DNA from: Vulcanisaeta distributa JCM 11217
GTDB lineage: Archaea > Thermoproteota > Thermoprotei > Thermoproteales > Thermocladiaceae
DNA: 64,000 nt
Reading direction: 5' to 3'
NCBI RefSeq assembly: GCF_001316005.1
Contig: NZ_BBBJ01000002.1
Coordinates: 186,001-250,000 of the forward strand
The notes below the pieces were generated by a model, which had not been told where the DNA came from, ran no database searches, and worked only from the letters and a program-made list of their open reading frames with translations. Both the position numbers and the translations under genes were made by a program. Position 1 is the first letter of the stretch. Every line of letters starts with the position of its first letter. Below are positions 1-64,000 of this stretch, piece by piece.

Positions 1-106
1 TAGAACTATGTATAGTAACCTCCGGCTCTTTAATTGCACGGTTAAATTCACGCTCAACAGTAGTATTTGATGATGGGATTATTACGCCAATTTTGAACCA
101 AGTCAT
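1..106 (-). CDS. Asp/Glu racemase / maleate isomerase-like protein, N-terminus (partial)
   Basis: The first 35 codons of a minus-strand gene run off the left edge. The ATG at 106-104 opens a peptide beginning MTWFKIGVIIPSSNTTVERE. The GVIxPSSNTTVE signature is the N-terminal strand and substrate loop of maleate cis-trans isomerase, arylmalonate decarboxylase and Asp/Glu racemase relatives, which use two cysteines lying further on. An AT-rich TATA-like stretch lies about 30 nt upstream on the minus strand, so the start looks leaderless. Family assignment rests on this short motif only and the exact substrate cannot be told. Confidence 0.6.
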   Translation of the reverse strand, partial: MTWFKIGVIIPSSNTTVEREFNRAIKEPEVTIHSS

Positions 107-225
107 TATCCCATATTTTTATCACGAGTTATTTAAATTTTCAGCTAGCTTTAATATAAAGAAATGCTAATTATTAACAAAGATAATGCTTTAAAATATA
201 GCTATAATTAATTATTTGATTAAGT

Positions 226-1544
226 ATGGTGTCCATGAGAACACTTGCAATAATAAGTACAAGTATAGGTATTGGGTTTGAATGGTATGATTTCTTCCTT
301 TATAGCCTATTAGGACCAGTCATAGCGGAGCTATTCTTTCCATCGAAGGTTGCCATTCTTTCTCTATTACTGTATTACTTAGTATTCTTGATAGGATTTT
401 TGGGTAGACCACTTGGTGGTATTATTTTTGGTCATATCGGTGATAAACTTGGTAGGATTTACGCCCTTTACTTTACATTACTATTTGCTGGTGCGTCTTC
501 ACTCGTAGTGGCTGTTCTACCCACTTACTATCAAATAGGCATTGTAGCCCCCCATTAACACTTGCTGCGATGAGATTTCTTGACGGCGTCGCGCTCGGCG
601 GTGAGTGGGGTGGTTCGTTCTCATTAACGTCAGAGTACATAAATCCGAATAGGAGAGGTCTTTATTCAGGTATTCTTCAGTCAACGGTGTCGATTGCATC
701 ATTAATGATAAGCGGACTAACATTACTATTAACGTCTATATTAGGGCAATCAGGATTTAAGGCAATAGGTTGGAGAATATTATTTGGTATAGGCTTCATA
801 ATTGCAATATTAGGCGTTTTCATCAGGCTTAGAGTTGAAGATTCACCGGTATTTAGACAGCTACAGAGCAAGGGTCAAATAGTTAAGAGTCCCTTAGTTG
901 AGGCTATTAGAAAATATTGGAAGTTAATATTAATTGGCTTATTCCTTGTTGGTGTCTTTAATGGCATTTGGTATTACATGAATTATGCATTCTCCATATC
1001 CTATGCAACCCTAATAGCTAAAGAATTTGGTAAGCCCTATGTATCGTACACGGTAACCCAGTTAGGAATTCTAATTGTTTCTATCATCGGCATATTTGCA
1101 TCCGTACTCTTTGGTTACTTATCAGACTTAATAGGTAGAAGGCCTCAGATGCTGGCTGACGCCGTTATTGGAATTGTATTTGCCGCACCGTACTTCTTAA
1201 TGTTAATAAGTGGTAACCCAACATTAGTAATTACGGCCATAATATTGGGTGGATTATTTGTTTACTACCTAGCAGGTGCAATAACGCCAATAGTACTAGT
1301 TGAGATGTTCCCACCCCCCCAGGTTAGGTATACTGGCATATCAATGGCTTATCAAATAGGTGTTGGGTTCCTTGGTGGTTCTGCACCGCTAATAATGACT
1401 TACCTAATCGCAGTAACTCACAATATTTATTCACCAATATACTTCATGATTGGTACTGGGGTGTTAGTATTGGCAATGGCGTTATTGGTCGGCGAAACCA
1501 AGGGAAGACTTTACATGGGTGAGGAAATCCTTAAGCAACAGTAA
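226..1544 (+). CDS. MFS transporter, metabolite:H+ symporter (MHS) type, frameshifted
   Basis: Twelve-helix secondary transporter of the cytoplasmic membrane, about 439 residues once joined. It carries the MHS subfamily marks: GFEWYDFFLYS in helix 1, GRPLGGIIFGHIGDKLGR for the loop 2-3 motif, and GVALGGEWGGS in helix 4. The frame breaks at a six-C run at 548-553; four Cs would restore IVAPLTLAAMRFLDG across the junction, so I treat it as one gene. MHS members move small carboxylates, proline, shikimate or alpha-ketoglutarate with protons; the substrate here is unknown. It is divergent from the racemase-like gene, and the 120 bp between them is AT-rich and holds both promoters. Confidence 0.85.
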
Positions 1545-1578
1545 AATTTAGTAGTTAATTAAATTAAAATCAATTAAT

Positions 1579-2486
1579 ATGATTGATGTTAGGAATTTGT
1601 TGAGAGGTGCCTTTGATCTTCATGTTCATAGTGCCCAGATATTGTGCCTAGGCTCCTTGATGATGTTGACTTAGCCAGGCTTTATAGGGATTATGGCTTT
1701 GGTGGTTTCGTAATTAAGAACCACTACTCACCAACCTATGATAGGGCTTACCTGGTTAGGAGAGTTGTGGATGGTATTGAGGTCTTTGGTGGTGTTGTGC
1801 TTAACAACTCTGTTGGTGGTTTAAACCCAAGGATAGTGTATGTGGCTGGTAAATCCGGGGGGGCTAAGATTATTTGGTTCCCAACCGTTGACTCGACAAA
1901 TGAGAGGTCATCACTACTTAACTGGCGTGGTAAGCCCAACTCACCGGCATGGGCTAAGGCACAACTTGAGCTTCATGATAGGGGGGGATTACTTGGCAAT
2001 GCTCTAGGTATATTTGATGAGGATGGTAGGATTAAACCTGAGGTTGATGAGATCTTGGATTTAATTAGGGAATTTAACATGATACTCGCCACAGGCCACC
2101 TAAGCCCAAGCGAGGGCATGCAGTTGGTTAAGAGGGCTGTGGAAAGGGGGGGTGTTAGGAAGATAGTCATTACACACCCTGAATTCCCAACGACTAGGTA
2201 CAGCATTGAGCAGCAGAGGGAACTGGTTAATTACGGTGTTTACTTTGAGAGATGTTACGAGTCCGTACTTACAGGTAGGGCGAGCATTAATGATGTCGTG
2301 AGGGCAATTAGGGAAACCGGCATTGAGAGGAACATATTATCAACAGACCTAGGCCAGGCGCATAATGAGCCACCCCCCCCACAGGGTTATGTAGAGTTCG
2401 TAGAGAAATTAATCGAAAATGGCGTCACTAGGGAAGAGATAGAAATAATGACGAGAGAGAATCAAAGGAAATTATTATATGAATAA
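1579..2486 (+). CDS. DUF6282 family metal-dependent hydrolase (amidohydrolase-like)
   Basis: Protein of about 302 residues. The start at 1579 gives MIDVRNLLRGAFDLHVHSA. One C is missing in the run at 1634-1636; with four Cs the reading becomes DLHVHSAPDIVPRLLDD and joins the long downstream frame. The HxH metal motif at the end of strand 1, the basic FVIKNHYSPT segment, the ATGHLSP segment and the late STDLGQ aspartate are what is expected of a TIM-barrel amidohydrolase. The DUF6282 assignment is from memory of that pattern. The substrate is unknown. It starts about 35 bp after the transporter, in the same direction, so a shared transcript is possible. Confidence 0.7.
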
Positions 2487-2504
2487 GTTAGCATGTTGAG
2501 ATAA

Positions 2505-3693
2505 TTAAACCCTCATTACTACTACGGTGCTTGCCTGCATCAAGTCCCCCCCCAGGCGTGAGCGAGACCAGTATATACAGGTTTCTTAACCTGTCTCTTA
2601 CCTGCCTTACCAGCTAACTGCCAGTAGATTTCGGCAACCTTCATTACGCCAGCGGCGGCTATTGGATTACCAACACCGAGTAGTCCACCTGATGGATTTA
2701 TTGGTAAGTCACCATCCTTTGAGTGACACCTTCCTTTGTTAGCTTTGGTGCCTCACACTTCTTAGCCAGCCCAAGGCCCTCCATGTGGTGTAATTCCTTA
2801 TAGTCGAATGGATCGTAAACCTCTGCAACGTCAATCTCCTTCCTCGGGTTTGTTATGCCTGCCATCCTATAGGCCATTTGGGCGGCTACATTGGCATACT
2901 CGGGGGGGAATGCCAAGTCCCTGTTAGTCCAGGACGTTGTGTCTAGGGCCCAGCCGACTCCATCAATCCAGACAGGCGTGTCCGTCTGTCTCCTCGCCAC
3001 ATCCTCGCTGGCAACCACGAATGCAGCTGCTCCATCACTCACGGGTGATATGTCCAGTAATTGGACAGGCCATACTAACACCTCGCTCTTGAGTACGTCA
3101 TCTACCGTTATGTTAGCGGCTACTTGGGCCGCTGGGTGGTCGAGGGCGTTACGCTTATTCTTAACGCTGACTAGGGCTATGTCCTCCTTCTTAACGCCGC
3201 ACTTATACATGTACCTATGCATTTCCATTGCGAAAATCCAGATTAGGTTTGGCTGTAATGGTACCTCAGTGACTGGGTCCCATATGTACCTAAAGACCGC
3301 TTGTGGGTGTGGTATATCAGCATCGCTCATTTTCTCCTCAGCGACGGCTAGCACAGTCTTACAGTGCCCGCTAGCCACGTGCCACCAGGCGGCTATTGGA
3401 ACCATCACGCCGGTAGCACCACCAACGAAAACCCTCATTGTTGGCTTACCAACACCGCCAGCCCCCCCATCAGCCAGGTACTCGCCCTTCATGTGAACTC
3501 CATCGAATGTGTCTGGCGCCGAGCCGATGACTACGCAGTCAATGTCCTTAAGCGTAAGCCCAGCCTCGTCAAGTGCTTGTTTGGCGGCTATCCAGGCAAG
3601 TTCCTTGGGCGTCTCGAGCATCCTCCTCCTAAATAACGTTAATCCCGCGCCGATTACGGCGGGTCTGTGCTTAACGTAAATATTCCTACTCAT
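2505..3693 (-). CDS. Thiolase-fold (SCP-2/lipid-transfer type) protein lacking catalytic residues
   Basis: Thiolase-superfamily protein of about 395 residues, second gene of a two-gene minus-strand operon. The fold is clear from VVIGSAPDTFDGVHMKGEYL, VSVKNKRNALDHP, SPVSDGAAAFVVASEDVA and the C-terminal NPSGG loop. The nucleophilic Cys position reads GGATGV, and the late Gly-His-Pro loop reads Gly-Asn-Pro, so neither the Cys nor that His of true thiolases is present. Two breaks disturb the C-terminus: a CC at 2716-2717 that should be CCC, and an eight-C run at 2546-2553. It probably forms a heteromer with the product of the gene upstream. A CoA-ester retro-aldolase role, as in Ltp2, is one possibility. 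Confidence 0.8.
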
Positions 3694-3731
3694 AAGATAC
3701 CACCCATGGCTTAGTTCTTAAGCATTACCAA

Positions 3732-4898
3732 TCACCTACTTAACACTGCGACGACGCTCGTCGTGGTCGGCACACCACGCCATGAATGAACAACAGCCTT
3801 CTCAGCCTTACTTAATTGCATCCTACCAGCCTCACCCCCCCTCAGTTGTAGTACTGCATTGACTAGCCTGGCGAGACCATGAACCTCAAGTGGAACGCCC
3901 TCACCAAGTGCGCCACCGCTCGGATTCACTGGGAATAGGCCATCCCTATCAAAGGCGCCCTCCAGGAGTAGTTTATGAGCCTCACCAATTGGGGCCAGCT
4001 TTAACGCCTCAATGAATTGCAACTCCTTGAAGCTGTACCTTGCATCAACTTCTGCGAAGTGTAGTTCTTTAATTGGGTCCTGAATACCAGCCATCTTATA
4101 CGCCGCCTCAGCGGCCCTCATAGCATGTACTGGGAATTCCCAGTTATGGAACTCGAGGGATGGATCCTCGGTAATCCAATGTATGCCGTCGACCCACACG
4201 GGGGGGGTGTCCGTGTATCTCCTAGCTACGTCTTCACTGGCGAGGACTACTACGACGGCCGCATCAACAAATGGTGCAATATCTAGTTTTGTTAGTGGTG
4301 ATACGGCATATGGTGAATTTAATACTTCGTCAATGGTTAGGTTAGCGCCATAACTGGCTTTATCGTTATAAAGGGCGTTCCTCTTATTCTTAACTACTAC
4401 GTAAGCCAATGCCTCCCGTGGCACGTTGTAACGCGTCATGTAAGCTTGAGCCTCTAATGCCGCTAACGCGTGATAATTGGGTGTGTTTATTGCCCTTATA
4501 GTTATTGGATCCATGGCGAAGAGCATGACATCATGCATGTTAATAATGTCGCTAGGCTTTGCGTGCGACTCCACAGCGACAATATCAAACTGCCCAGTTT
4601 TAATCATCATATAAGCGTTGGCCACGCATTGAAGCCCATCACCCGGCGTCGTGAATACGGGCTTCAACGTACCGCCAATAGGCTCTGGCGCGAATTCGTC
4701 GGCTATGGCTATACCCTCCCAAAAGTCCTCTTGGCAACTTGCGAAAGCATCAACATCAGTCCTTGGGTTTAAACCACCGGCATCTTCATAAGCGCGGGTT
4801 GCAGCCTCAAACATCATCTCCCTAAACGACGCCTCCTCAACCACAGGCCTAAACCCGTACCAGCCAACCCCCCCTATAATTGCAACTCTCCTTGACAT
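3732..4898 (-). CDS. Thiolase-fold (SCP-2 type) protein, partner of the gene downstream, catalytic residues missing
   Basis: Intact 388-residue thiolase-superfamily protein, first gene of the pair (38 bp gap to the next). It shares the layout of its neighbour: VVVKNKRNALYND, DIAPFVDAAVVVVLASEDVA, then NPSGGALGEGVPLEVHG. The active-site Cys region reads TTPGDGLQCVANA, so the nucleophile position is not Cys, and the Gly-His-Pro loop is Gly-Val-Pro. In heteromeric archaeal SCP-2 systems one thiolase subunit usually keeps catalysis and a DUF35 protein binds CoA; neither is seen nearby. A TATA-like box lies about 24-38 nt upstream in the intergene shared with the divergent prepilin peptidase. Confidence 0.8.
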   Translation of the reverse strand: MSRRVAIIGGVGWYGFRPVVEEASFREMMFEAATRAYEDAGGLNPRTDVDAFASCQEDFWEGIAIADEFAPEPIGGTLKPVFTTPGDGLQCVANAYMMIKTGQFDIVAVESHAKPSDIINMHDVMLFAMDPITIRAINTPNYHALAALEAQAYMTRYNVPREALAYVVVKNKRNALYNDKASYGANLTIDEVLNSPYAVSPLTKLDIAPFVDAAVVVVLASEDVARRYTDTPPVWVDGIHWITEDPSLEFHNWEFPVHAMRAAEAAYKMAGIQDPIKELHFAEVDARYSFKELQFIEALKLAPIGEAHKLLLEGAFDRDGLFPVNPSGGALGEGVPLEVHGLARLVNAVLQLRGGEAGRMQLSKAEKAVVHSWRGVPTTTSVVAVLSR

Positions 4899-5007
4899 AG
4901 TAATTATGGTACCAGGGACCTTTTAATTTATTACCCATATACCCATTGTTAACCTGCCAAACATTAACCTTAATAATTTCCTTAAGGACCAGATTAATCG
5001 TAAATCC

Positions 5008-5770
5008 ATGGTAAGCCCATACACACTACTCTTAGTGGATTACCTGTTGGCGCTTGCTGTACAAGTTGCGGCGTCAATACAGGACTTAAGGACCAGGGAG
5101 ATCAGTGATTGGACGTGGATAATAGGCTCAATAATATGCATACCACTGAGCCTATACGCAGTGATCATGCTTAATCAATTAATTCTGTACATAATTAGTG
5201 TGGTCGTTGGTTCGGTATTTGCATTAGCAGTTTATTGGCTGAGGGCAATGGGTGGTGCTGACTCTAAGTCCATAGCCTTCATATCGGCCTCAATACCACG
5301 CTACCCATGACCAGCCCAGCACTAACCGTGATAAACATCACGCCATTATCAGTACTAATTAATTCACTAATCATAGCTTTAGCAATATACATACCCTACA
5401 ACATAGTTCAAAATATTAAGTACGGCAATATTGCGAGGCCCTATCCAGGGTTAAGGGGGGGCTTAACAAGGTAATATACTTAGTGACTCTCATGTGCGTA
5501 CCTGCACATAGGGTTTTTAGAAACCCCAATAATTACGCAATATCCCAGGAACCCGCCGATGGTGGATTTCAACCAGTGATTAGGCTTGGTCTTGAGGTTG
5601 ATGACCCAAGGGAGTTACTAACTGAGTGGTTGTCCCAGGGTAAGATCAACGTGGATACACCGGTACTGACTTCATACCACATACCATTCATAGTACCCAT
5701 AACCCTCGGCCTAATTATGTACATAATAACCCATGCAAACTTCCTAACGCTTGCCCTGTCCTCATTATGA
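5008..5770 (+). CDS. A24-type prepilin/preflagellin peptidase, frameshifted twice
   Basis: Polytopic aspartyl peptidase of the cytoplasmic membrane that cleaves class III signal peptides of archaeal pilins and archaellins. Residues near 24 read AASIQDLRTREISDW and residues near 88 read MGGADSKSIAF; the aspartates of the two motifs (QD-LR and GGAD-K) are the family catalytic pair. The frame breaks at about 5298 (one A missing, restoring ASIPTLPMTSPALTV) and at the seven-G run 5455-5461. The joined protein is about 254 residues and ends in a hydrophobic helix. No pilin gene is seen next to it, so the substrate is not known from context. Confidence 0.75.
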
Positions 5771-5776
5771 ACACGA

Positions 5777-5790
5777 AAATTTTTATTTAA
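5777..5790 (+). promoter_or_regulatory. TATA box of hisS
   Basis: AT run aaatttttatttaa lies centred about 26 nt before the GTG at 5809, the normal archaeal TATA-to-start distance for a leaderless mRNA. It supports GTG 5809 as the start of hisS. Confidence 0.55.
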
Positions 5791-5808
5791 CCGCTATATC
5801 GGTGATCT

Positions 5809-7121
5809 GTGGTATTTGACGATAAGGACCTAAGGCCTGTCAGGGGGGGAATGAGGGACCTAACGCCTGAGGAGTATTACCCAATGCTTCAAATCTTTGA
5901 TAAGTTGGCTAGGGTCGCCGAGTCCTTTGGCTACCTAAGGGTTGAGACGCCAGCCCTCGAGCACTATGAAATACTTAAGGCCAAGGCGGGTGAGGATGTG
6001 ATAAACGAGATTTATTACTTCAAGGATAAGGCTGGTAGGGAGGTTGGGCTTAGGTTCGACATGACCGTGCCTGTGGCTAGGGTCGTGTCGTACAGGGTTG
6101 ACGTGCCGAAACCAATTAGGTGGTATTACATAACGAAGGTTTGGCGTTATGACGAGCCACAGCACGGTAGGTATAGGGAGTTTCACCAATTCGGTATTGA
6201 ATTCATAGGTTCCTCAAGCGTTAGGGCTGACGCTGAGGTACTGGCCGTTGGTGTTGAGGCCCTCAAGGCCCTTAGTATTGGTGATTTCAGGATTAGAATA
6301 AACGATAGGAGAGTCATTGATCAATTATTGGGTAAGTTAGGGATATCTGGCGAATTGAGGCCGAGCGTTCTCAGGATCATGGATAAGAGGGGTAAGGTGC
6401 CTGATGATGAATTACTAAGGATGTTGAGAGACCTCGGGTTGAATAATGACACTGCACAGGAAGTTCTTAGGCTCGCCAATACGAGTGAGAGTATTGATAA
6501 GGTCATTGACTCGTTCAGGGAGTTCGGCGTTAGTGATGAGTTTATTAAGTATTATAGTGAATTGATAGACCTCCTGGACATGTATGGTATACGTAATTAC
6601 ATGGACCTTGACATGGGTATCGTGAGGGGACTTGATTATTACACAGGCATTGTATTTGAAATGTACGTGCCAGACTACAAGTTGTCCGTGGGGGGGGTGG
6701 CGGTAGGTATGATAATCTAATTGAGATTTACAGCGGAAAGCCAATGCCAGCCTCGGGATTTGCCATGGGCATTGAAAGATTGCTTGAGGTACTTGAGCAG
6801 AGGGGGGGCTCGCTTAAGCGTGGTTCTCCACAGATTGATTATTACGTGTATGTCCTGGGTAATGACAGGAGTTACCTGGCGCTCGGTTATAAGTTAGCCA
6901 GTAACTTGAGAGTTCGTGGTAATAAGGTCCTTGTTGATACTGGAGAGAAGAGTCTCAGAAGTGCGCTTGAGTACGCTTCGAAGATAAACGTTAGGTACTT
7001 CGTAATAGTGGGTCCTAAGGAGGTATCGCAGGGCTTTGTTAAGGTTAGGGATATGAGTAGTTGGAGTGAGAGAGAGGTCCCATTAACTGAGTTCGGGATT
7101 AATGCCAGGGGGGGTGAATAA
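5809..7121 (+). CDS. hisS: Histidyl-tRNA synthetase, frameshifted
   Basis: Class II synthetase that charges tRNA-His; about 436 residues when joined. Seen: N-terminal LRPVRG-MRDLTPEEYYP, motif 2 VWRYDEPQHGRYREFHQFGIE, the histidine-specific signature GLDYYTGIVFE, then the GGGRYDNLI glycine loop, and a C-terminal anticodon domain (DYYVYVLGN, KVLVDTGEKSLRSALEYASK). The eight-G run at 6690-6697 throws the glycine loop out of frame; six Gs read VGGGGRYDNL. Near the start a seven-G run gives VRGGMRD where the family has VRGMRD or VRGTRD, a clear example of an inserted Gly codon. Confidence 0.93.
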
Positions 7122-7138
7122 GTAAATAAAGGGGGGGG

Positions 7139-7653
7139 TTGTTTAATGTTAGTATAATGGTTAGGGAAGGGGGGGGTTCGGGCAATTCAAAGTACCTAAA
7201 GGCTGATCTTCTTGATGTAATTGAAATACCGGAGGAGGGCGTTGCAGTGATGCTCTTCACAACCGAGGAGTGGGAGGATAGGGTCCTGCCAATTAGGATA
7301 GACATAACAGCCTCATTCTCAATAAAGAAGGCCCTAGGCTAGTCTCATTTCACAGGCCATTAACCCACGATTTACTCGTCGACTTAATTAATAGGCTCGA
7401 TGCCGTTGTCGAGAAGGTAACCATCGACGCCATGATTGACGGCGTTTACCTAGCCACAATATTCATTAAGGATAATAGGACAAACGAGACATTCCAACTA
7501 GATGCCAGGCCAAGCGATGCCACCGCAATAGCCGTGAGACTTGGAGCACCTATCTACGTAGCTGAACACCTCGTAGCCTACACAGAACCTCTCGAAAATT
7601 ATAGGGAATTAAGGCTAGGTACGGCTTCAGTTTTAATAAGAATTTCTAATTAA
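7139..7653 (+). CDS. DUF151 / bifunctional nuclease family protein, frameshifted
   Basis: Small DUF151 protein of about 170 residues. The family is known as bifunctional (RNase/DNase) nuclease in plants and bacteria; its role in archaea is not settled. Seen: YLKADLLDVIEIPEEGVAVML in the first half and the diagnostic FQLDARPSDATAIAVRLGAP in the second. One T is missing at about 7340 (ggcta for ggctta); with it the halves join through SFHRPLTHDLLVDLINRLDAVVEK. The start is either TTG 7139 or ATG 7157; a G-rich tract just before makes this unsure. It follows hisS by 17 bp. Confidence 0.8.
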
Positions 7654-7658
7654 GGCAT

Positions 7659-8068
7659 TCACTCACCGAGCGCCACAAGGACAACCCTCCTACTCCTAGG
7701 CCCATCGAACTCAGCTAGGAAAACCTCCTGCCAAGTTCCGCGGATAAGTTCGCCATTCATTACTGGCAATACATAGAACTGCTTAAAGATTGACGTGAGG
7801 AGATGGGCGTCGGCGTTATTATCTATCTCATTGTGGTGGTAATTACCGTTGGCCGGTACTAACCTTTCAAATAAATTCTCATAGTCCTTCCTTATCCTTG
7901 GCTCATCCTCATTGGCGAACAGGCTGATGTTGCGTGCGGTAGGAAGACTAGGACTATGCCGTTCCTAATTCCGGAATTCTTAACGAAATCCTCCACCTGA
8001 TCCGTTATGTTAATGACCTCCCTACGCCTCCTACTTTGTATTGTTATTTCCCTCGTGATGACCCTCAT
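7659..8068 (-). CDS. YjbQ / UPF0047 family protein, frameshifted
   Basis: Protein of about 137 residues from ATG 8068. N-terminus MRVITREITIQSRRRREVIN; then the conserved VFLPHATSAL, NADAHLLTSIFKQF and GTWQEVFLAEFDGPRSRRV. The His of PHATSA and the His of NADAHL belong to the family active site; YjbQ proteins have been linked to thiamine phosphate synthesis. One G (plus strand) is missing near 7922, which hides the gene from simple ORF calling; gcc-ctg instead of gcctg restores the frame. It converges on the DUF151 gene with a gap of 5 bp. Confidence 0.85.
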
Positions 8069-8122
8069 AACACATTAATTAACCCGGAGCAATTAGTAAA
8101 ACCTTATCCGCATAATCAGTCA

Positions 8123-8512
8123 TTACCTTAATTGCTTCTGAATAAGCGATATGAGCCTATCCAACTCAAGCATTGTAAGCCCTATCGTTGAGTCATCACC
8201 ACCCTGCACCAAGATGCCAATTGCAAAGTCCCTAAACCTCTTAATTATTATGTAGCCCGTACTCGCCTGAACAATTACGTGGCTAGAATCCTCATTGAGC
8301 AACTCCTTACTAACCCTATCGCCCACTGCACTTAGTGATGCGACCATTGCGGCTACGCGGTCCGGGTCAACATCAATCCTTGATGCATGGGCCACCAGGA
8401 GCCCATCAAGTGATGCTATATACACGCCGCTTATATTATCGGTGCTGTTTAGGAAATCCTTAACAACCTTACCCAAGGCTTCACTGACCTCCTCCATTAC
8501 CTTATTATTCAA
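8123..8512 (-). CDS. Roadblock/LC7 domain protein
   Basis: A 129-residue single-domain protein: an amphipathic first helix (EALGKVVKDFLN), the strand pair GVYIASLDGLLVAHAS, a long central helix (RVAAMVASLSAVGDRVSKEL), strands HVIVQASTGYIIIKRF and FAIGILVQG, and a C-terminal helix ending in LRLISLIQ-like sequence. This is the Roadblock/LC7 (MglB) pattern. In bacteria and archaea these dimers regulate or platform small Ras-like GTPases. No GTPase gene lies next to it here. It is intact with no odd run. Confidence 0.8.
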   Translation of the reverse strand: MNNKVMEEVSEALGKVVKDFLNSTDNISGVYIASLDGLLVAHASRIDVDPDRVAAMVASLSAVGDRVSKELLNEDSSHVIVQASTGYIIIKRFRDFAIGILVQGGDDSTIGLTMLELDRLISLIQKQLR

Positions 8513-8543
8513 TTCCTAAGAGAATATAAACATATCTTCCAAT

Positions 8544-9154
8544 CTACTTCCTAACGATTATCCTCCAGCCACTCTTAAACCTCTTAATTAAATCCCTCCT
8601 AACTAACTCCCTAAACAGCTCCACATAAGCCTCACTAGGCTCGGCACCCCCCCTTAGCTCAATCCCGTACCTCCTCGCCAAGGACTTAACATTATTGACG
8701 CAGTCTGCCTGAGCGGGCAGGTTGAGCAGTAGTTGGTTAGGGGCTCGCCGTTGATTATCACGAGTCCGTGAATTGGGTCTATGAACGCACCCTTATTCAT
8801 TGATATGCTAAGCACTATCTCTCCATTAACATCGTGTATATCATAAACTACGTAGATGCGACCACCGGGCAGGTACTTATTACCGCTCTTAATAACCCAA
8901 CCGGAGTTTAACAGTCTCTTTAAATGCCTTGATAACTTACCCCCCCTCTGAATATTCGTTCTCCTCATGATCTGCGTAAAGGTGTTATACCCACTCAACA
9001 CGGCAAGCATTATCTCGAGGTTCGTGCCATCAAGTATCACGTTGAAGTCCCTCTCCATCATCAATACGTACTCATTATCATACCTTGGGGGGGTCGCGCT
9101 TACGCGCTCGCCATTTATCGTAACCACTATTTCGGGCTTAACGACGGCGTTCAT
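8544..9154 (-). CDS. Winged-helix DNA-binding protein with Cys-rich segment, frameshifted
   Basis: About 204 residues joined. An N-terminal beta-rich part precedes a winged helix at about residues 45-90 (AVLSGYNTFTQIMRRTNIQR, HLKRLLNSGWVIKSGNKY), followed by a strand-rich part, a Cys pair YCSTCPLRQ with a third Cys soon after, and a basic C-terminus. The frame breaks at about 8705, where one base is missing; restored reading continues DCVNNVKSLARRYGIEL and stops at 8544. The Cys cluster could bind a metal. Probably a transcription regulator restricted to Thermoproteales; I cannot name it further. Confidence 0.6.
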
Positions 9155-9261
9155 TAAGTAACGTGGTAATGCCCCAGCTTATTAACCAATTTCCAGAAAT
9201 CACTCTGTTTAGTAAGTGCTCGTAGGTATTACTTTAAATTATTAATTTTCATGGTTTATTC

Positions 9262-9831
9262 ATGCCGTTTAAGAACTTTATAAGGCTTGAAATACCCGAT
9301 GTAATACTCGTGGAGCCCGTCGTGTTTCCAGACGTTAGAGGATTTTTCATGGAGCTTTATAAGAGGACTGACTTCCTAACGGGTGGTGTGCCTTACGACT
9401 TCGTCCAGGTAAGCCTAAGCAGGTCAAGGCGTGGTGTTGTCCGTGGCCTGCACTACCAGCTTAAGCCCATGGAGCAGGGTAAGCTCGTTACCGTAGTTAG
9501 GGGGGGCGCGTGGTTGACGTTGCCGTTGACGTTAGGAGGGGGGGCTCTCCCTGGTTCGGTAAGTACGTAATGGTGGAGCTCTCTGCAGACAGCCCAAGGC
9601 TTCTCTGGATACCACCAGGCTTCGCCCATGCTTCCAAGCCCTTGAGGATGACACTCTATTCCTGTACCTACAGACCAAGGAATACAGCCCACAGCATGAG
9701 AGATGCATTGCCTGGAATGACCCTGAAATAGGCATACCATGGCCAATTAAGGAGAATGTAATAATTAGTGAGAAGGATAGTAAGTGCCACCGCTTAGGCA
9801 GGCTGAGACGAACTTCGATTATCCGATATAA
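9262..9831 (+). CDS. rfbC: dTDP-4-dehydrorhamnose 3,5-epimerase, multiply frameshifted
   Basis: RmlC cupin enzyme of dTDP-L-rhamnose synthesis, about 190 residues joined. Seen: VVFPDVRGFFMELYKRTDF, FVQVSLSRSRRGVVRGLHYQ with the catalytic His, GKLVTVVRG, then VDVAVDVRRGSPWFGKYV, LWIPPGFAHGF and the late EYSPQHERCIAWNDPEIGI. Breaks: seven-G run 9500-9506, a missing G at about 9630 and a missing C at about 9787. No other rml gene lies in the window, so it stands alone here. TATA-like sequence ctttaaatt is about 28 nt before the ATG. Confidence 0.85.
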
Positions 9832-9915
9832 TCAGCCCTCACACGCATCAGCACCGGATAAGCCTGTTAAGCCTCATCACACTAAAGCTTATTATGTGGA
9901 TAACTTAAATTTAAG

Positions 9916-9972
9916 TCATATGATGAGTTGAACCCACGCAGATAAATGAAGATGCCTAAACCGACTGACCCA
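9916..9972 (+). ncRNA. C/D box guide sRNA (candidate)
   Basis: The complete archaeal C/D architecture can be read: C box ATGATGA (9920-9926), 12-nt guide GTTGAACCCACG, D' box CAGA (9939-9942), 3-nt spacer, C' box ATGAAGA (9946-9952), 12-nt guide TGCCTAAACCGA, D box CTGA (9965-9968). Both guide lengths and the 3-nt D'-C' spacer match the archaeal norm. It would direct 2'-O-methylation with L7Ae, Nop5 and fibrillarin. The first guide is complementary to CGTGGGTTCAAC, which resembles a tRNA T arm; the second target is not recognised. It lies between rfbC and the next gene and touches no coding frame. D' is a variant. Confidence 0.72.
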
Positions 9973-54034: not shown

Positions 54035-54049
54035 CCTTTTAAAATTTAA
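54035..54049 (-). promoter_or_regulatory. TATA box of HMG-CoA synthase gene
   Basis: Minus-strand ttaaattttaaaagg is centred 27 nt before GTG 54015, supporting that start. It overlaps the 3' end of the PaREP2b gene. Confidence 0.55.
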
Positions 54050-55650
54050 GGTTCGCAGTCAATTTCTTTTGATGATGATAACTTCATTAATGCACGTATT
54101 ATCTTCGCTCTTGTCTTCTCATTCTTAGTCTTCTTAAGTTTACTGCAAAGTACCCTATGTATTGCATTTCGTAATTCATCATTCCTAATTATGGCCTTGA
54201 ATGGTATACTCACAATCGTGTATCCCTTCTTCTGCCTTATGGAGACTTTTTCGTATGCATTCCTTAACTTCTCATAAATCCTTAATGCCCTGATGGAATT
54301 CTTCGTTGAAAGTACGAGTCTTAGGTTATTATAGTCTATCGTGAATCTCTCGCCATATATTTCAACCTGTGACTCACCTCGGATATACTTAAACTCCACA
54401 TTAGAGATCTTCTTTATACCCAACCACTTATCGCTTTCTAATGCGTCCAGGACCTCTCCTAGAATAGGTGGTACAGCATTTAATATGGCCCTTGCTAATT
54501 TAACAGCATGGCTGTCGTAAAACGATATATTTGCAACGTTGTTCTTGCTATTTAGATTATATTTAACATTTAATGATTTACTTAATTTCTCAAGTATTGC
54601 CTTCCACTCCTCTAACTTTTCTTCTAGCTTTGCTGCGTTTACCGTAATCTCTATCCTCGCCCTTAACCTGTTTCTCCTCAGATACGCATTTGCATAGCCG
54701 TCACCCAATATGCTTGTTAATAAAAAGATCAATAACGTCTTTTCATCAAGGCCTTTAGCGATCTTAAGTGCATTTTCTTTATATGATGTGTGGTTGTTAG
54801 CCGTGAGGGACCACGTTATTGTTACGTCTTCAACGTTTACATTAATTGATTTTATATTTATGTATACATCTCCTGGATAAAGAAGTGCCCAAAATACCGC
54901 TTGCCATAGGCGTGTTGTCCTCATCCTGGGTTTATCCTTATTTTCTCCCTCATCTGTATTAGCAAGACCCAGCTTTGCTGCAAGGAGTATTTTAGTGAGT
55001 TCTTCGTATTTACTCCTATTTTTCATAAACTCCTTGAAGACGTCTGGTATCCTTATTGTTATGCCTGGAAAGTCATTAAGTATTTGGACTATAACATCCC
55101 TATTCCTAATAATTTCTAAGGTGATGCGGCTTCCACGTACCGTGATTGTTAATGAGCTCTCCGTCCTCCTAACAATTACTTCAGCCCTGCCGTTTATTAA
55201 ATCTTCGATGACCCTTCTTAATTCATTAGATACTCTATTCCTAATCCAATAATCATCATATTGATATAAGTACTTTAACATCTCATTAAGAATATCATCA
55301 ATCACCTTAGCCACCTTATCGTTTATTGTCTTAATTTTATCCCTACTATTGAATATTTTGATTTTCTCCTTATCTAACCACCATGGTACCCATACTCGCC
55401 AACGTAATAAACGGTAAAGAACTTCAATAAGTATTATAATAACCTCATTAATCGTCTTTAGATCATCGATCTCCCCCCCACCGCACTTATACTTAGAATC
55501 ATCCCTTTCACCCCCCCAGCACAATCTGTTTTTCCTAATTAAATCCTCATCAATTTTAATACATGCAATTTCTAGATCCTGAGCAATACACATCGGTAAT
55601 TTAATTTTTAAATGATTAATAAGGTCCTCAGGATGATTGTTAATGAACAC
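54046..55650 (-). CDS. PaREP2b-type protein with LAGLIDADG-like motif
   Basis: Intact 534-residue protein. The C-terminal half has the order typical of PaREP2b proteins of Pyrobaculum: LLIFLLTSILGDGYANAYLR, RIEITVNAAKLEEKLEEWKA, VKLARAILNAVPPILGEVLD, ALESDKWLGIKKISNVEFKY, ERFTIDYNNLRLVLSTKNSI and VSIPFKAIIRNDELRNAIHR. LTSILGDGYANAY looks like one LAGLIDADG helix with its acidic residue. PaREP2 families are multicopy and of unknown function. Codon use is more AT-rich (many AAA, ATA) than neighbours, suggesting transfer. Two seven-C runs lie near its N-terminus. Confidence 0.7.
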   Translation of the reverse strand: MFINNHPEDLINHLKIKLPMCIAQDLEIACIKIDEDLIRKNRLCWGGERDDSKYKCGGGEIDDLKTINEVIIILIEVLYRLLRWRVWVPWWLDKEKIKIFNSRDKIKTINDKVAKVIDDILNEMLKYLYQYDDYWIRNRVSNELRRVIEDLINGRAEVIVRRTESSLTITVRGSRITLEIIRNRDVIVQILNDFPGITIRIPDVFKEFMKNRSKYEELTKILLAAKLGLANTDEGENKDKPRMRTTRLWQAVFWALLYPGDVYINIKSINVNVEDVTITWSLTANNHTSYKENALKIAKGLDEKTLLIFLLTSILGDGYANAYLRRNRLRARIEITVNAAKLEEKLEEWKAILEKLSKSLNVKYNLNSKNNVANISFYDSHAVKLARAILNAVPPILGEVLDALESDKWLGIKKISNVEFKYIRGESQVEIYGERFTIDYNNLRLVLSTKNSIRALRIYEKLRNAYEKVSIRQKKGYTIVSIPFKAIIRNDELRNAIHRVLCSKLKKTKNEKTRAKIIRALMKLSSSKEIDCEP

Positions 55651-55809
55651 GAAATATTTTGTGAGATTAGTATGTGCTGTGCAATAATTTAAGTTAAGTA
55701 TGTGAAATTGAACTTATTAGTAAACGCATGGCATTGGACCAGTGAGTTGGAATGATGAAGATAATTATATAAGCTGAGTTGGGGGGGGTTTAAGCAATGA
55801 GGATTAGTC

Positions 55810-58053
<2,244 letters not shown>

Positions 58054-58071
<18 letters not shown>

Positions 58072-58787
58072 CCTTTCATACTCAATCCTCTTCCTAATAA
58101 AAATATCAACAGTGTAGATAGGCCTGGCAGGCACGCCGGCAACGACCTCCCCCCCTGGCGGCACGTCCTTAGTCACGACAGAGCCCGCCGCAACCACGGA
58201 GTTCTCCCCCCCAATCTCAATACCCGCTATCAAGGTTGCGTTAGCGCCAATTACGGCATTCCTCCTAATCTTAACACCATCAAGTCTCTTACTCGGTGGG
58301 TACTTATCGTTAGTTATCACGACGTTAGGCCCTAGGAACACATTATCCTCTATGACCGTGCCCCCTCGGTATGTAGACCATGCTCTGTATACTAACGTTA
58401 CTGCCGATCACCGTGTCCCCCATCAATAATAACCCCCCCAGACCCAATCCTAGTATTCGCGCCAACCCTCGTGTTTTCCCTAATCAACGCGTTATGCCCC
58501 CCCGTCTCAACACCATCGCCGATCTCCACATTCTCATAGATAATGACATTACTCCTAATAATGCAGTTCCTACCAATTATGGCACCACTACTGACCTCAT
58601 CCATTAAATGCTCAATAACGGAATCCTTATCCCTCACGCCCAGGAGTTTTGACCTGATTGGGTGGCCTATAATGACGAAGGGCTCAACTATAGTACCCTC
58701 GTTAATTATTGATGGACCGAGCACTACGACATCCCCCCCACCCACGTTTCTACTTAGTATTTTTGCCCTTGGGGATATGTATGTCAT
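58054..58787 (-). CDS. Left-handed beta-helix acyltransferase (WbbJ/LbH type), frameshifted
   Basis: About 244 residues of hexapeptide repeats: [51 protein letters not shown], then [60 protein letters not shown] and [11 protein letters not shown]. This is an O- or N-acetyltransferase acting on sugars, trimeric as a rule. Breaks near 58425 and at the five-C run near 58361-58365; several six- or seven-base runs fall at Gly positions. Its 3' end overlaps the 3' end of cdc48 by 18 bp (convergent). Confidence 0.82.
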
Positions 58788-58842
58788 TGATTGATAGTCA
58801 CAAGATAAATATTTAAGTAATTACTAATTGATATTATTCGCA

Positions 58843-59429
58843 ATGGGTTATTACCCAGCGCCACCCCCCCACCCCCCCCACGTGAGGACCCAATAGCCAG
58901 GATTCTCAGGGAGTTAATGAACTTAAATAGTAAGGTTGATCAAATGTCCAGGAACCTGGCGGACCTAAGTACTAGGGTTGAGAACCTGGAGAGTAGGGTT
59001 AATGATATTGAGAAGTCCCTATCCAGCCTAATAAAGGCCCAGGAATTAATCAGTGGAATAACTCCGCAGAGCATGGCTGAGTTGGCTGGCATGCTGTCTA
59101 ATACGTTGAGGGAGTTGACGAGGATTGAGGCTTCGCTAATTGCATATAGGGATTCAATATCGTCATTGCAGGGTAAGATTGAGAATGCGGTGGATTTGTT
59201 GGCAAAGACCGCGATGGATTTGAGGGAGTATAGAACCCTTGATGTTAACCAGGTTGTTGAGATCACGAATCAATTATCCAACGTTGCGACGCGGCTTAAT
59301 GAACTTCAGAAATTAATTGAGGAGCAAGGCATTAGGTTGATCTCTGAGTATAGAAAAAGTTCTGAGACGATTGAGGGGCTTAAGTCAGTTATTTTGGATG
59401 TCCTGGGTAAGGGCGCTGGCAAGTCTTAG
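58843..59429 (+). CDS. Coiled-coil protein A, frameshifted at Pro-rich start
   Basis: About 195 residues. ATG 58843 gives MGYYPAPPPHPP, broken by two long C runs (58863-58869 and 58872-58878), then EDPIARILRELMNLNSKVDQ and a long heptad region: NLADLSTRVENLESRVNDIE, SLSSLIKAQELISG, then a second coil TNQLSNVATRLNELQKLIEE. No enzyme motif. TATA-like aaatatttaagtaa precedes the start. First of three consecutive coiled-coil genes on this strand; the short gaps suggest they work together, perhaps as a filament or scaffold. Confidence 0.6.
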
Positions 59430-59516
59430 TTTTATGTTGTTTTTCATCACGTTCAATTTCATTTAGAATAATAAAAGCAAAATATATTAGTTCCCCCCCT
59501 GTTTAAAATACGTACC

Positions 59517-59990
59517 GTGTTCAGGTCTAAGGAGGCATCAGAGCTTTACCAGAGGATTAACGAGATAAGCAATTTACTTCAGGCGTTACAACAGAATGTA
59601 CAAGCACTAATTAATAACGCCAATCAAATGCAGAAGAATCTTCAGGCTATTTCAGCCGGAATTGAGAGGAATGACAAGACACTACAGGATGCGATTAAGG
59701 TCATAAACTCATCAACCACAGACATAGCCAGCAGGGTTGCCCAAATGAACACCATCGTTAATCAATTCAACGACACTAGTAAGAAGCTCATGGATTCCTT
59801 GTTCGATGCACTTGAGAAAATAAACAACCTCCTAGACAGGCTCCAGGGATTATCAAGCAACATGCAGCAGAGCCTCGTAAGTGCCACCACAACCCTTGAA
59901 TCAATTAATAATAATGTTAAGGACTTAAACACTAAAATTGAGAGCGGAGTTGATAAGGCATCAGCCTTGTCTCAGAGGTATCTAAGTTGA
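59517..59990 (+). CDS. Coiled-coil protein B
   Basis: A 157-residue protein, GTG start, almost entirely coiled coil: LYQRINEISNLLQALQQNVQ, ALINNANQMQKNLQAISAGI, DIASRVAQMNTIVNQFNDTS, LEKINNLLDRLQGLSSNMQQ and NNNVKDLNTKIESGVDKASA. Rich in Asn, Gln and Ser at non-core positions. It overlaps the next gene by 4 bp (start at 59987) and lies 87 bp after coiled-coil protein A. No transmembrane segment or catalytic motif. Confidence 0.65.
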   Translation: MFRSKEASELYQRINEISNLLQALQQNVQALINNANQMQKNLQAISAGIERNDKTLQDAIKVINSSTTDIASRVAQMNTIVNQFNDTSKKLMDSLFDALEKINNLLDRLQGLSSNMQQSLVSATTTLESINNNVKDLNTKIESGVDKASALSQRYLS

Positions 59991-60971
59991 GTAATTTATT
60001 GGCGGAGTTGAACAAGGTGTATAACGAAGTCCTTAATAGGGAGAAGGACCTGGAGAATAAACTACTCGATATAAGTAGGAGGGAGAGCGACGTTTCGGTT
60101 AGGGAGAAAAGCCTTGAGGAGCTTAGGCAAAGACTGGAAAGCGATAGGAAGGCAATTGAGGAGGAGAAAGCTAAGTTGGCTGAGATGAGTAACGTGATGG
60201 CGTCCCTTATGGCTCTCTCTAATCAGTTAACAACGAGACTTAGCGACCTCGATAATAAAGAGAAGGCCTTGGCTGAGAGGGAGAAGGCACTTAATGAGAG
60301 GGAGGCTAAGCTTAGGGATTGGGAGGTTGAGTTAAAGTCCCGTGAGCAGAGGCTTGAGATGGAGGCTGTGAGGATCGATGCGAGAATGCAAGGCTTAGGG
60401 AATTGGAGAAGAAGGAACAGGAGGTTAAGGAAAGGCTTGATCAGTTGGCTCAGAGGGAGGCTGAACTTAAGGAGCTTGAGAAGAAGTTGAATGAGAGACA
60501 GGAAGCGTTGAATAAGCTTGAGGCTGAACTTAAGGATAAGGAGAGTAGGCTTAATTCCCTGGAGAACCTGCTTAAGGAGAGGAGGATACGCTGAAGAAGC
60601 TTGATGAAGAGATTAATAAGAGGAGGAGGGAACTCATGGATAAGCTTGAGCCATTAATAACGAAGCTTGTTGAGGAGGAGAAGAGACTCACGGATTGGGA
60701 GAAGAGACTTCTTGATAAGGAGAGGGAGTTGATGAATTACCAGAGGGCCTTAATAATTAGGGAGAACACGCTGGTTGAGTTGAGGGAGAAGCTTGATAGG
60801 GAGAGGGAGGAGTTGGAGAGCAAGATGAAGGAGATTAATAAGATTGAGAGTGAGTGCCAGGACATACGTAAGAAGTACGAGCAACTACTTAAGGAGAGGG
60901 AGGAGTTAATGAAGATTATTGAGAGTAAGGATAAGGAGCTTAATCAATTGAGGGCGCTGATCAAGAAGTAA
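59987..60971 (+). CDS. Coiled-coil protein C, frameshifted
   Basis: About 328 residues joined, highly charged coiled coil: KVYNEVLNREKDLENKLLDI, VREKSLEELRQRLESDRKAI, EREKALNEREAKLRDWEVEL, then AQREAELKELEKKLNERQEA, LEAELKDKESRLNSLENLLK, LVEEEKRLTDWEKRLLDKER and ending LKEREELMKIIESKDKELNQ. Breaks near 60390 (missing base) and 60588. Heptad stretches start with RE or KE, similar to SMC or Arcadin-4-like arms but without ATPase heads. Overlap with gene B indicates coupled translation. Confidence 0.65.
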
Positions 60972-61010
60972 TCGAGTTGAAAATAAGTAGTTATACAAAT
61001 TTTATTTTAT

Positions 61011-61337
61011 TTAAATAACCACGATGAGTACGTACGCGAAAATCAGGATTATGTTAATAATATTCAGACCCAGCGAGAAAAACGCTAGAATTCTCTTCAA
61101 CTTTCCAATTATTAACTCCCTATCCGTATATGCGGTATTCACGTCATACCACGTCTGCTTAATTGATAGAAATGACACAAAGAAGCTAATTAATGCGAGT
61201 ATAAGTACGGTGATTTCCAGGGCAAAGTTACCCCCCCTACTGGGTAAGTACGTACCTGCCAGCGACGATAATAGAACCGTGTAAACAATCACTGCAAGGA
61301 CGATGGCCGCCACTAATAGCCTGGACATGATCATCAC
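61011..61337 (-). CDS. Small membrane protein, three helices
   Basis: A 108-residue protein with three membrane segments: LLVAAIVLAVIVYTVLLSSL, LEITVLILALISFFVSFLSI and LAFFSLGLNIINIILIFAYV. A short charged loop (DVNTAYTDRELIIGKLKRI) lies between helices 2 and 3. Seven-C run gives GG in SRGGNFAL. It overlaps the start of lysS-direction reading: its ATG at 61337 overlaps the stop of lysS (61334) by 4 bp, so the two are co-transcribed. No family recognised. Confidence 0.6.
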   Translation of the reverse strand: MMIMSRLLVAAIVLAVIVYTVLLSSLAGTYLPSRGGNFALEITVLILALISFFVSFLSIKQTWYDVNTAYTDRELIIGKLKRILAFFSLGLNIINIILIFAYVLIVVI

Positions 61338-62993
61338 CTTAACGCATCCCTTAACCTATTAATTACGAAGTCTCTACCAAGCATTGCGAGGTAGGGCGCT
61401 ATCCTTGGGCCACTTGGCTTACCGAAGAATACTAAGTATGTAGCCTCAAAGAACGCCTTCTCAATGCTTTTATTCTCCCTGGGAACCCTCTTCATCGCCT
61501 CCTTGATGTTGTCCTCATTCCAAACATCGACCCTCTCAAGCTCCTGAAGCAGTAATCCCAATTTGTTCCTTTGGATATCCGTTAATGACGCCCTTATTGA
61601 TTCAGGCAACTCCTCAAGAACCCTAATCCTGTATGTCTCAGGTGCGTACTTACTGACCCAGTTACGGGCCCTAATCAACCTAGACTTAATCCTCTCACGG
61701 GATAGGTCATCCAAATCCTTAGTTAGTATTTTCGTCTCTTTCAATCTCTTAATGACCCTCTCCATAAGCTCGTCCTCACTTAACGACTGCGGCAATGTCT
61801 GTATCAGAGCAACTGCATGTAGGTACGGCAGCTGAAACGGCATCTCCTTAGGCAGTGGTCTCCTCAACTGTGCATACTCATAGGACTTAATAATTAGGTC
61901 AAGGTAATCCTTTTCCTTAGGGCTTGGCTTATCAACACCGTAGTAAAGACGCTCAGCCCTGTCATAAATATCCACGTATTGATAAACCGAATCAAGACTA
62001 AAGGTAAGTCTCTTTGTCGGTTCATGGAATATGTATATGTACCTAAGAACCTCGGGCTCCGCAACCTCAACCCACTCCCTCGGCGTAAAGCCTATGAAGT
62101 CACTACTACCCATGTCACCCACGTCCTTACCATTAACCACATAACCAACCCACTCATACCAGGTACCCAATGGCGGGTTAATGCCATAGACCGTCTTTGC
62201 AATCTCAACCGCAGAGTCCCTGGAACCACCTGGCATTGCGTGGTCCTTTCCATAAGGCTCGAAGTCAACCTGCAACGTGTACCAAACACCAACCCACTCA
62301 ACCCTCCACGGAAGCTTACCATCAGTCAACTTAGCCCTACCAACATGCCCACAGTACGTACACCTATACTCAACCTCATACTTATCAAGGTCTAGTTTCG
62401 TGACCTCCGCAGTGCCGATCCTACCACAGTTCTCGCAAATTGGCTCGAAGGGTATCCAATCCTTCGGATACGGATTCCTACCCCCCCTATACTTATTAAT
62501 GACCTCAATCAACCTCTCCCTATTCCTCATAGTCATTACTATGAACTCCCTCATCCTAGGATGCTCCCTATACATTTCGCCGGTCGTTATAACCTTAACA
62601 TTCTTCGCGAAGTAATCAAGGTAATCACCAAAGTCCCTCCAGTAATGATCAACCCAGGACTTATGACAACCCTTGGGATCCGGGACACGCTCGAGAGGCC
62701 ACTCAACATACTTCCTACCAATCTCGGGATTCAAAAACTGCTCAAGCTGCTTATCCTTACCCTTCCAGGATCCACCGTGTACAGGGTCAAGACCTGTCTA
62801 ACCCTTAATCCCGCATCCCTTAATTTCTCGGCAATGACACTATTCAGTATTATCTCACCCCCCCTAAGCCTACCAATGTGTTGAAGTCCAGAAACGCTAA
62901 GACCGCCATTAAGTACGCACTCATCCTTACCCTCACTACGGCACCTCTCAAGAACTTGGTTCGCTATCCTATCAACCCAATGGTATAACTCAT
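61334..62993 (-). CDS. lysS: Lysyl-tRNA synthetase, class I, frameshifted
   Basis: Class I LysRS, about 553 residues, archaeal type. N-terminus LYHWVDRIANQVLERCRSEG; HIGH-like motif GLSVSGLQHIGRLRG; zinc site CENCGRIGTAEVT and CTYCGHVGRAKL; WRVEWVGVWYTLQVDFEPYG-KDH; and the region of the KMSKS motif, reading GDMGSSDFIGFTPREW without the usual lysines. The helical anticodon domain follows. Breaks: one near 62985 right after the start, and a missing T near 62770 (cct-tgg expected). TATA box at 63017-63027 fits the ATG at 62993. It could be studied further because the KMSKS region is weak. Confidence 0.9.
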
Positions 62994-63016
62994 TACTGTG
63001 AGAAGAACCAGCTACT

Positions 63017-63027
63017 AATTTATAAGT
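63017..63027 (-). promoter_or_regulatory. TATA box of lysS
   Basis: Minus-strand acttataaatt is centred about 29 nt before ATG 62993. It predicts a leaderless lysS mRNA starting close to that ATG, just where the first frame break lies. Confidence 0.55.
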
Positions 63028-63044
63028 TATCCCAAGCCAACAGC

Positions 63045-63335
63045 TTAGCCACCCTCCGCAGGCGGTAGAAACACTACCTCATCATTATCATTAAGCTTCG
63101 TAGCAAGCCCATTAAGCCACTCAATGGCCTTACCATTAACCAGGACCACGTACTCACCCCCCCTAAGTCTGCCGTCACCATCAAGCACGGCTTCGGCAAA
63201 CTTAGGATTAAACGTATGAGAAATGAGATCAATGAGATCACGCACTGAAAGGCCGTTTGGGGGGGTCTCAAGTTCAATTCTAAATGCACCAATCAACTCA
63301 TAAAGATCACCAAAAAACTTAACCCTAACCCTCAC
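63045..63335 (-). CDS. MoaD/ThiS/Urm1-like ubiquitin-fold protein (SAMP)
   Basis: A 96-residue beta-grasp protein: MRVRVKFFGDLYELIGAFRI, SVRDLIDLISHTFNPKFAEA, GEYVVLVNGKAIEWLNGLAT, NDNDEVVFLPPAEGG. The C-terminal Gly-Gly is the adenylation and thiocarboxylation site used for molybdopterin or tungstopterin synthesis, tRNA 2-thiolation or protein conjugation. Two seven-base runs add residues (ETPPNG and LRGGEY). It precedes lysS in the same direction, 52 bp apart. Confidence 0.85.
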   Translation of the reverse strand: MRVRVKFFGDLYELIGAFRIELETPPNGLSVRDLIDLISHTFNPKFAEAVLDGDGRLRGGEYVVLVNGKAIEWLNGLATKLNDNDEVVFLPPAEGG

Positions 63336-63413
63336 AAATCCAGGGAGACTATGAGCAGCATAAAAATTTAACTCAGTCTATAGTTTGGTAATGATATTTA
63401 ATAAATTGAAAAT

Positions 63414-63512
63414 TGGTGCCCCCCCGGCCGGGATTTGAACCCGGGTCACGGGCTGTCTCCGCTTAAGCTCGAAAGGCCCACATACTTGACCGGGCTATAC
63501 TACCGGGGGGGC
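63414..63512 (-). tRNA. tRNA-Glu(UUC) with a 15-nt intron and encoded CCA
   Basis: Minus-strand tRNA. Anticodon arm TGGGC / CTTTCG / 15-nt intron / A / GCCCG gives anticodon TTC. D arm TAGTATAGCCCGGTCAAGTA, T arm CCGGGTTCAAATCCCGG. The acceptor ends GCACCA, so CCA is encoded. Both acceptor strands contain a seven-base run (GCCCCCCCGG and CCGGGGGGGC); removing exactly three from each gives a perfect 7-bp stem GCCCCGG / CCGGGGC. As written the stem would be 10 bp, which no tRNA tolerates. The promoter ggcttaaaaaccgac lies at about 63531-63545. Confidence 0.9.
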
Positions 63513-63530
63513 TCGTTAATCATTAAATAC

Positions 63531-63545
63531 GTCGGTTTTTAAGCC
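63531..63545 (-). promoter_or_regulatory. TATA box of tRNA-Glu
   Basis: Minus-strand ggcttaaaaaccgac is centred about 26 nt before the tRNA 5' end (63512). Confidence 0.5.
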
Positions 63546-63606
63546 TTTATGCTGTCATTTCCCATTGGGTTAATTAATTTAAGTTCGTATTTTTGCGGTT
63601 GGTTTA

Positions 63607-64000
63607 ATGCCCATCACCGTATTTAGGAGTGGCGATCTTTACTTCATTAGATTTTCAATAAATAGACGCCCTAGGAGGGCTGCCTTCGTCATTGGTAATT
63701 TTACAGCATTCATGAAACCCATCGAGCTTGAATTTTGCGGCTTTGACTACTGCGCATATGTCTCATTACCCCCCCAGGTAAATATTACTATAGGTACTTA
63801 ATCGATGGTGAGGTGGTCCTCGATGATGGCCCTACGGAGAACGGGTTTAACGTGCTTAAGCTCAGCGGCCCTGTTAGGAGGATTCGTGAGAGTAGGCGTA
63901 GGTTGTTCAGGGCTATTTACGGCATTTTCGTTGATAGGTTTGGGTGTAAGAGGGAGGGTGGTCCTAGGGATAGGCTTGGTGGTGATTTATACTTCATTAT
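63607..64000 (+). CDS. Alpha-amylase family glycoside hydrolase, N-terminus (partial, frameshifted)
   Basis: The gene run off the right edge starts at ATG 63607. It reads MPITVFRSGDLYFIRFSINR, then AAFVIGNFTAFMKPIELEFC, and after a break at the seven-C run 63770-63776 (five read LPPGKYYYRYLIDGEVVLDD) continues GPTENGFNVLKLSGPVRRIR, LFRAIYGIFVDRFGCKREGG and GGDLYFI. The beta-sandwich start followed by IFVDRFxxxGGDLxxI is the GH13 neopullulanase/cyclomaltodextrinase layout. It would break down starch, glycogen or cyclodextrins; no signal peptide, so it is likely intracellular. Confidence 0.8.

Follow-up and report, generated by a model that had tools for sequence, protein, structure and literature searches.

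The G/C runs of 7 and 8 bases in the 64,000-base stretch of the Vulcanisaeta distributa JCM 11217 genome analyzed here (hereinafter, the window) can be attributed with near certainty to a systematic error in the draft assembly and do not reflect the biology of the strain. The lengthening is apparent against several relatives, is nearly restricted to G/C runs of at least 4 bases, and is accompanied by a strand-linked correlation of run states that mostly spans 200 bp or less.

Positions 1 to 64000, no strand: whole window, with 115 G/C runs of 7 and 13 of 8, mostly lengthened true runs of 4 or 5 bases as judged from the aligned sample

Run lengths in the window and its genome

G and C runs of 3, 4, 5, 6, 7 and 8 bases occur in the window 1186, 54, 14, 6, 115 and 13 times, respectively, and none is as long as 9 bases; a first-order Markov model predicts approximately 8 G/C runs of 7 compared to the 115 observed. 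The first-pass annotation described G/C runs, chiefly of 7, spread over the entire window, with few runs of 5, and these counts bear out that description (115 vs. 14). Its additional statement that runs of 4 are normal does not hold: the finished relative G008 has 276 G/C runs of 4 per 80 kb, that is, about 220 per 64 kb, vs. 54 in the window, a shortfall that arises because the missing runs of 4 now read as 7. The density of G/C runs of at least 4 is the same in the sample of the window's genome (G000; 3.95 per kb) and in G008 (3.93 per kb), and therefore pre-existing runs have been lengthened. The A/T runs had been described as unexpanded, and indeed, those of 4, 5 and 6 bases are found 186, 66 and 6 times, with none longer than 6, and among the A/T runs of 4 in G008 that could be aligned, only 1 of 47 reads 5 in the window and none is longer.

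The same spectrum extends beyond the window. The JCM 11217 assembly is 67% complete and consists of 19 contigs with a total of 2,076,046 bases; 18 further stretches of this genome, totalling 327,820 bases, were examined, and in every one of them, runs of 7 are more numerous than runs of 5 or runs of 6, and the maximum length is 8. Two additional stretches without readable letters were excluded. The short contigs C16 and C19 of G000 show no run of A, C, G or T in the count, as would masked sequence.

Comparison with relatives

The main reference, G008, is a finished genome, taken to be that of V. distributa IC-017T, that is approximately 85% identical to the window. Among the 56 G/C runs of 4 in G008 that are aligned with the window, 27 read 7, 14 read 4, 4 read 5, 3 read 6, 1 reads 8 and 7 are shorter; of the 9 aligned runs of 5, 3 read 8, one each reads 7, 6 and 5, and 3 are shorter. 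In G003 (V. distributa JCM 11216, BBBI), 85 runs of 4, including those in the 16S rRNA stretch, read 7 in 37 cases, 4 in 24, 5 in 11, 8 in 2 and 6 in 1, with 10 shorter, and 10 runs of 5 read 8 in 4 cases and 7 in 3. The onset is sharp, with G/C runs of 3 reading 7 in 1 of 402 cases in the window and 3 of 454 in G003. In the clean relatives, a length of 5 is seen at 0 of 34 (G004), 1 of 27 (G010), 1 of 10 (BBDN) and 1 of 4 (BBDM) of the G/C runs of 4, and no greater length occurs. A few window runs of 7 align to reference runs of 1 to 3 bases (three in G004, four in G010, two in G003 and one in G008).

The IC-017T sequence was produced by 454, likewise a flow method (PMC3035369). The result is the same when G010, taken to be the Illumina and Nanopore genome of V. 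souniana (IC-059), serves as the reference: of 21 G/C runs of 4 in this genome, 9 read 7 in the window, 4 read 4 and 8 are shorter.

Three-base insertions relative to G008 number 1.95 per aligned kb in the window and 2.02 in G003, vs. 0.14 in G004, 0.22 in G010, 0.20 in BBDN and 0.36 in BBDM, a 5- to 15-fold excess of the affected genomes over the clean relatives. Most are located inside G/C runs of at least 4 (67 of 86 in the window and 59 of 83 in G003), and none are in A/T runs. The expansion had been characterized as being by exactly three bases; this is the commonest change, seen in 27 of the 56 runs of 4, but lengths of 5, 6 and 8 are found as well.

Further base-level errors may be present in JCM drafts generally. 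Single-base deletions relative to G008 number 54 in 44.0 kb of the window, 64 in 41.0 kb of G003, 29 in 44.5 kb of G004, 38 in 35.7 kb of G010, 20 in 14.9 kb of BBDN and 16 in 11.1 kb of BBDM.

Distribution of the pattern among genomes

Exact runs of seven G, counted on both strands, number 3857 in G000 and 4803 in G003, compared to 0 to 5 in each of 10 other Vulcanisaeta genomes; in 19 further relatives, the counts range from 0 (G016) to 310 (G023). Close pairs of such runs were counted as well: in 398 Thermoproteota genomes, a sample from a larger group, there are 225 pairs in G000, 321 in G003, 1 to 4 in 18 others and 0 in the remaining 378. Thus, among these 398 genomes, the pattern is limited to G000 and G003. 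Counting of G/C runs in the window and in related genomes was one of the checks proposed in the first-pass annotation, and it confirms the excess and shows the other Vulcanisaeta, except G003, to be clean.

The 7-run pattern is absent from two other JCM records, BBDM (JCM 14467, G005) and BBDN (JCM 16159, G002). The MCM protein of G000, which matched 10 loci, is closest to those of BBDN (97%), BBDM (97%) and BBBI (94%); next in similarity are a Vulcanisaeta metagenome bin (93%) and, much more remote, six other loci (59-62%). The BBDN and BBDM assemblies, free of 7-runs, are only 63% and 81% complete, respectively, and may contain another kind of error.

The two affected genomes do not share their run states beyond chance. 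At 39 shared sites where both the window and G003 have a length of 4 or 7 (sites with other lengths were dropped), the states are independent (odds ratio 0.70, p = 0.72), and a second set of shared sites gives the same outcome (19 of 25 sites used, 6 dropped; odds ratio 1.5, p = 1.0). Runs of 7 at the same positions in a relative had been named as evidence against an artefact. Such runs are indeed found at some sites in G003, but this genome is itself affected, and the agreement is at the level expected by chance.

RNA genes

The lengthened runs are also found in genes for functional RNAs, including the tRNA-Glu gene of the window:

63418 to 63510, reverse strand: tRNA-Glu gene (ARAGORN), both strands of the acceptor stem longer by three bases than in G008
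63505 to 63511, forward strand: seven-base run (C when read along the gene) in the 5' strand of the tRNA-Glu acceptor stem, compared to 4 in 16 of 16 other copies
63419 to 63425, forward strand: seven-base run (G when read along the gene) in the 3' strand of the tRNA-Glu acceptor stem, compared to 4 in G008

The 5' arm contains four C in all 16 matching copies from 10 other Vulcanisaeta genomes, one of which is the affected G003; the search for copies of this gene yielded no match in G005. The proposal that these arms should contain runs of 4 is thus upheld, both arms being three bases longer than in G008.

A search of G000 for archaeal SSU rRNA gave no match, whereas all 5 relatives searched have one, and therefore the rRNA test was made with G003. 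The match to the archaeal SSU model in this genome is split into four pieces and extends to position 1046 of 1478; the 3' part is uninformative because the contig (40,306 bases) ends at that point. The part of the 16S rRNA gene that is present contains 24 insertions relative to G008, of which 15 are three-base insertions, all 15 in G/C runs. A ribosome with such insertions would not be expected to work.

Protein-coding genes

Of the 62 open frames of at least 150 amino acids in G008, 34 align with the window over their full length; of these 34 genes, 24 contain a frame-breaking indel and 30 an in-frame indel. Insertions in G/C runs account for 52 of the 66 in-frame events and 16 of the 58 frame-breaking events in the window, and for 41 of 58 and 10 of 55, respectively, in 28 genes of G003. 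The corresponding numbers in the clean genomes are 0 of 7 and 0 of 27 in G004 (30 genes), 0 of 7 and 0 of 40 in G010 (25 genes), 0 of 8 and 0 of 15 in BBDN (8 genes), and 0 of 0 and 0 of 7 in BBDM (7 genes). With only 16 of the 58 frame breaks in the window coming from G/C-run insertions, most of the frame breaks are not caused by this artefact, and frame breaks against G008 are found in clean genomes as well.

The histidyl-tRNA synthetase gene illustrates both kinds of damage:

5843 to 5849, forward strand: run of seven G in hisS at the VRG-MRD site, four G in G008, that is, three bases longer
5848 to 7082, forward strand: match to the hisS family, broken into two pieces that lie in different frames (5848-6681 and 6693-7082), a single piece in G008
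6690 to 6697, forward strand: run of eight G at the hisS frame break, aligned as two bases longer than in G008

The suggestion that the run at the VRG-MRD site should be of 4 agrees with the three-base excess over G008 at 5843. Pfam and NCBIfam scans of 20 open frames pertain only to the gene content of the window.

States of neighbouring runs

For the analysis of neighbours, 391,820 bases of G000 were used, with 446 runs of 4 and 905 of 7 or 8 (lengths 5 and 6 excluded). When two runs of the same base are within 50 bp of each other, their states agree in 164 of 195 pairs (56% expected), whereas the states of runs of opposite bases at this distance differ in 60 of 87 pairs (44% expected). In other words, a long G run on the top strand tends to be accompanied by a C run of correct length nearby on the same strand. 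In 10,000 shuffles, the values observed for the 620 pairs within 100 bp were never reached: the states agree in 325 of the 411 same-base pairs (mean of the shuffles 230, maximum 268) and differ in 135 of the 209 opposite-base pairs (mean 93, maximum 126). The effect declines with distance, with same-base agreement and opposite-base disagreement of 62% and 57% at 150-200 bp and of 66% and 45% at 200-300 bp, and same-base concordance stays slightly above the expected 0.56 out to 4 kb (0.58-0.66). The pairs in G003, although far fewer and noisy, point in the same direction.

The concordance and discordance of neighbours in the assembly lend indirect support to a read-strand asymmetry. From this behavior, mostly confined to 200 bp, we infer a read-strand-specific error that was fixed by the local majority of reads, and the range of the correlation suggests reads of about 200 bp. 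An effect of the coding strand was not detected, with 65.6% of 674 and 61.9% of 247 runs expanded (p = 0.35); the labels in this comparison are rough, being derived from stop-to-stop frames in a damaged genome, and the 430 runs that do not fall in a labelled frame (72% of them expanded) were excluded.

Local sequence context was considered as the cause of the choice between 4 and 7 and was rejected, given that the flanks show just weak preferences. Oriented to G, the base after the run is T in 49% of the runs of 7 vs. 39% of the runs of 4, and the base four positions past the run is G in 33% vs. 22%; these are rounded shares, uncorrected for the number of positions examined.

Origin of the lengthened runs

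Replication slippage or a hypermutator state could, in principle, have lengthened G/C runs in the DNA itself. Phase-variable tracts and slippage in mismatch repair-deficient strains likewise change the length of G/C tracts and can break frames, the affected genomes are two members of one genus, with none of the 396 others in the phylum affected to a similar degree, and the commonest change keeps the frame (the 52 of 66 in-frame events in 34 genes that are G/C-run insertions). Nevertheless, we consider such instability exceedingly improbable, and there is next to no chance that the strains truly carry runs lengthened by slippage that adds three bases to runs of at least 4. Unlike phase-variable or slippage tracts, the runs in the window affect housekeeping genes and functional RNAs and spare A/T; such RNAs and essential genes, which selection would be expected to spare in the case of slippage or phase variation, are hit in the form of both tRNA-Glu acceptor arms and HisRS in the window and the 16S rRNA gene in G003. 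Lengths are bimodal and not graded: instead of forming an intermediate class, runs of 5 and 6 are less frequent than those of either 4 or 7 in the window, and less frequent than those of 7 in 18 of 18 further stretches. Furthermore, the state of a run tracks the base of its neighbour, the short-range discordance of opposite bases has no obvious biological cause, and at the sites they share, the two affected genomes have independent run states. The preference of the first-pass annotation for an assembly or base-calling artefact over real instability is accordingly supported by the clean relatives and the G003 16S insertions, and further by the independent states, the lack of a coding-strand effect and the mostly short-range strand-linked pattern.

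A fault of assembly or polishing alone, whereby correct reads were rewritten by software at G/C runs of at least 4, would fit the bimodal output (4 or 7) that is bounded at 8, and other JCM drafts produced with the PGM were assembled with Newbler 2.8 (PMC3974947). This scenario also appears very unlikely: the way in which run states vary with base and distance resembles two read orientations with different lengths, and pure rewriting is not expected to track the read strand.

The systematic error that we favor would instead originate in the reads. In reads of one orientation, true G/C runs of at least 4 would be called too long, by three bases in most cases, such that run length differs between the orientations, and the consensus would follow the locally prevailing length, leaving about two thirds of the runs long and the rest correct. 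The reads probably came from a flow-based platform, the Ion Torrent PGM, and the cause might be a base-specific fault of scaling or recalibration that sets in at homopolymer length 4. The Torrent base caller includes a homopolymer recalibration step that starts at this length.

As for the platform, BBBK01 (V. souniana JCM 11219), a sister record in the accession series of the affected BBBI, was sequenced on the Ion Torrent PGM (PMC9872577). V. distributa JCM 11217 is given as BBBJ and JCM 11215 as BBCT in PMC5069417, and PGM sequencing with Newbler 2.8 assembly is described for other JCM strains (PMC3974947). Like the homopolymer errors of flow methods (Ion Torrent PGM, Roche 454), which vary with run length and can differ between strands (PMC3623719), the errors described here fall in homopolymers (67 of the 86 three-base insertions in the window are in G/C runs of at least 4). 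Unlike them, the changes in the window are confined to G/C, with a sharp onset at 4, and are mostly of three bases instead of one, and the consensus is fixed at the long state in about two thirds of the runs of the genome. High-frequency PGM indels are reported to be mostly of a single base, chiefly A/T insertions or C/G deletions; those that are strand-asymmetric are for the most part deletions of C and G in homopolymers of 2-3, and deletions dominate in longer homopolymers (PMC3623719). An over-call of G/C by three is not typical of the PGM, and with published errors being mainly single-base changes and C/G deletions, a fault specific to the run or the software is needed. In the window, the four bases are not all affected, nor mostly by one; with A/T unchanged and three the commonest increment, this is not the usual form of flow error but merely works like it. 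In the literature searched on the artefact and on the BBBI and BBBJ platform, the three-base G/C pattern is not described.

Implications

The neighbour test indicates a read-strand error from the assembly alone, without recourse to raw reads, and a run spectrum in which 7 outnumbers 5 and 6 provides a quick screen for such records. Two Vulcanisaeta genomes that serve as species representatives, both approximately 67% complete, hold thousands of lengthened runs each, and these add glycine or proline codons in genes, break some reading frames and alter RNA genes.
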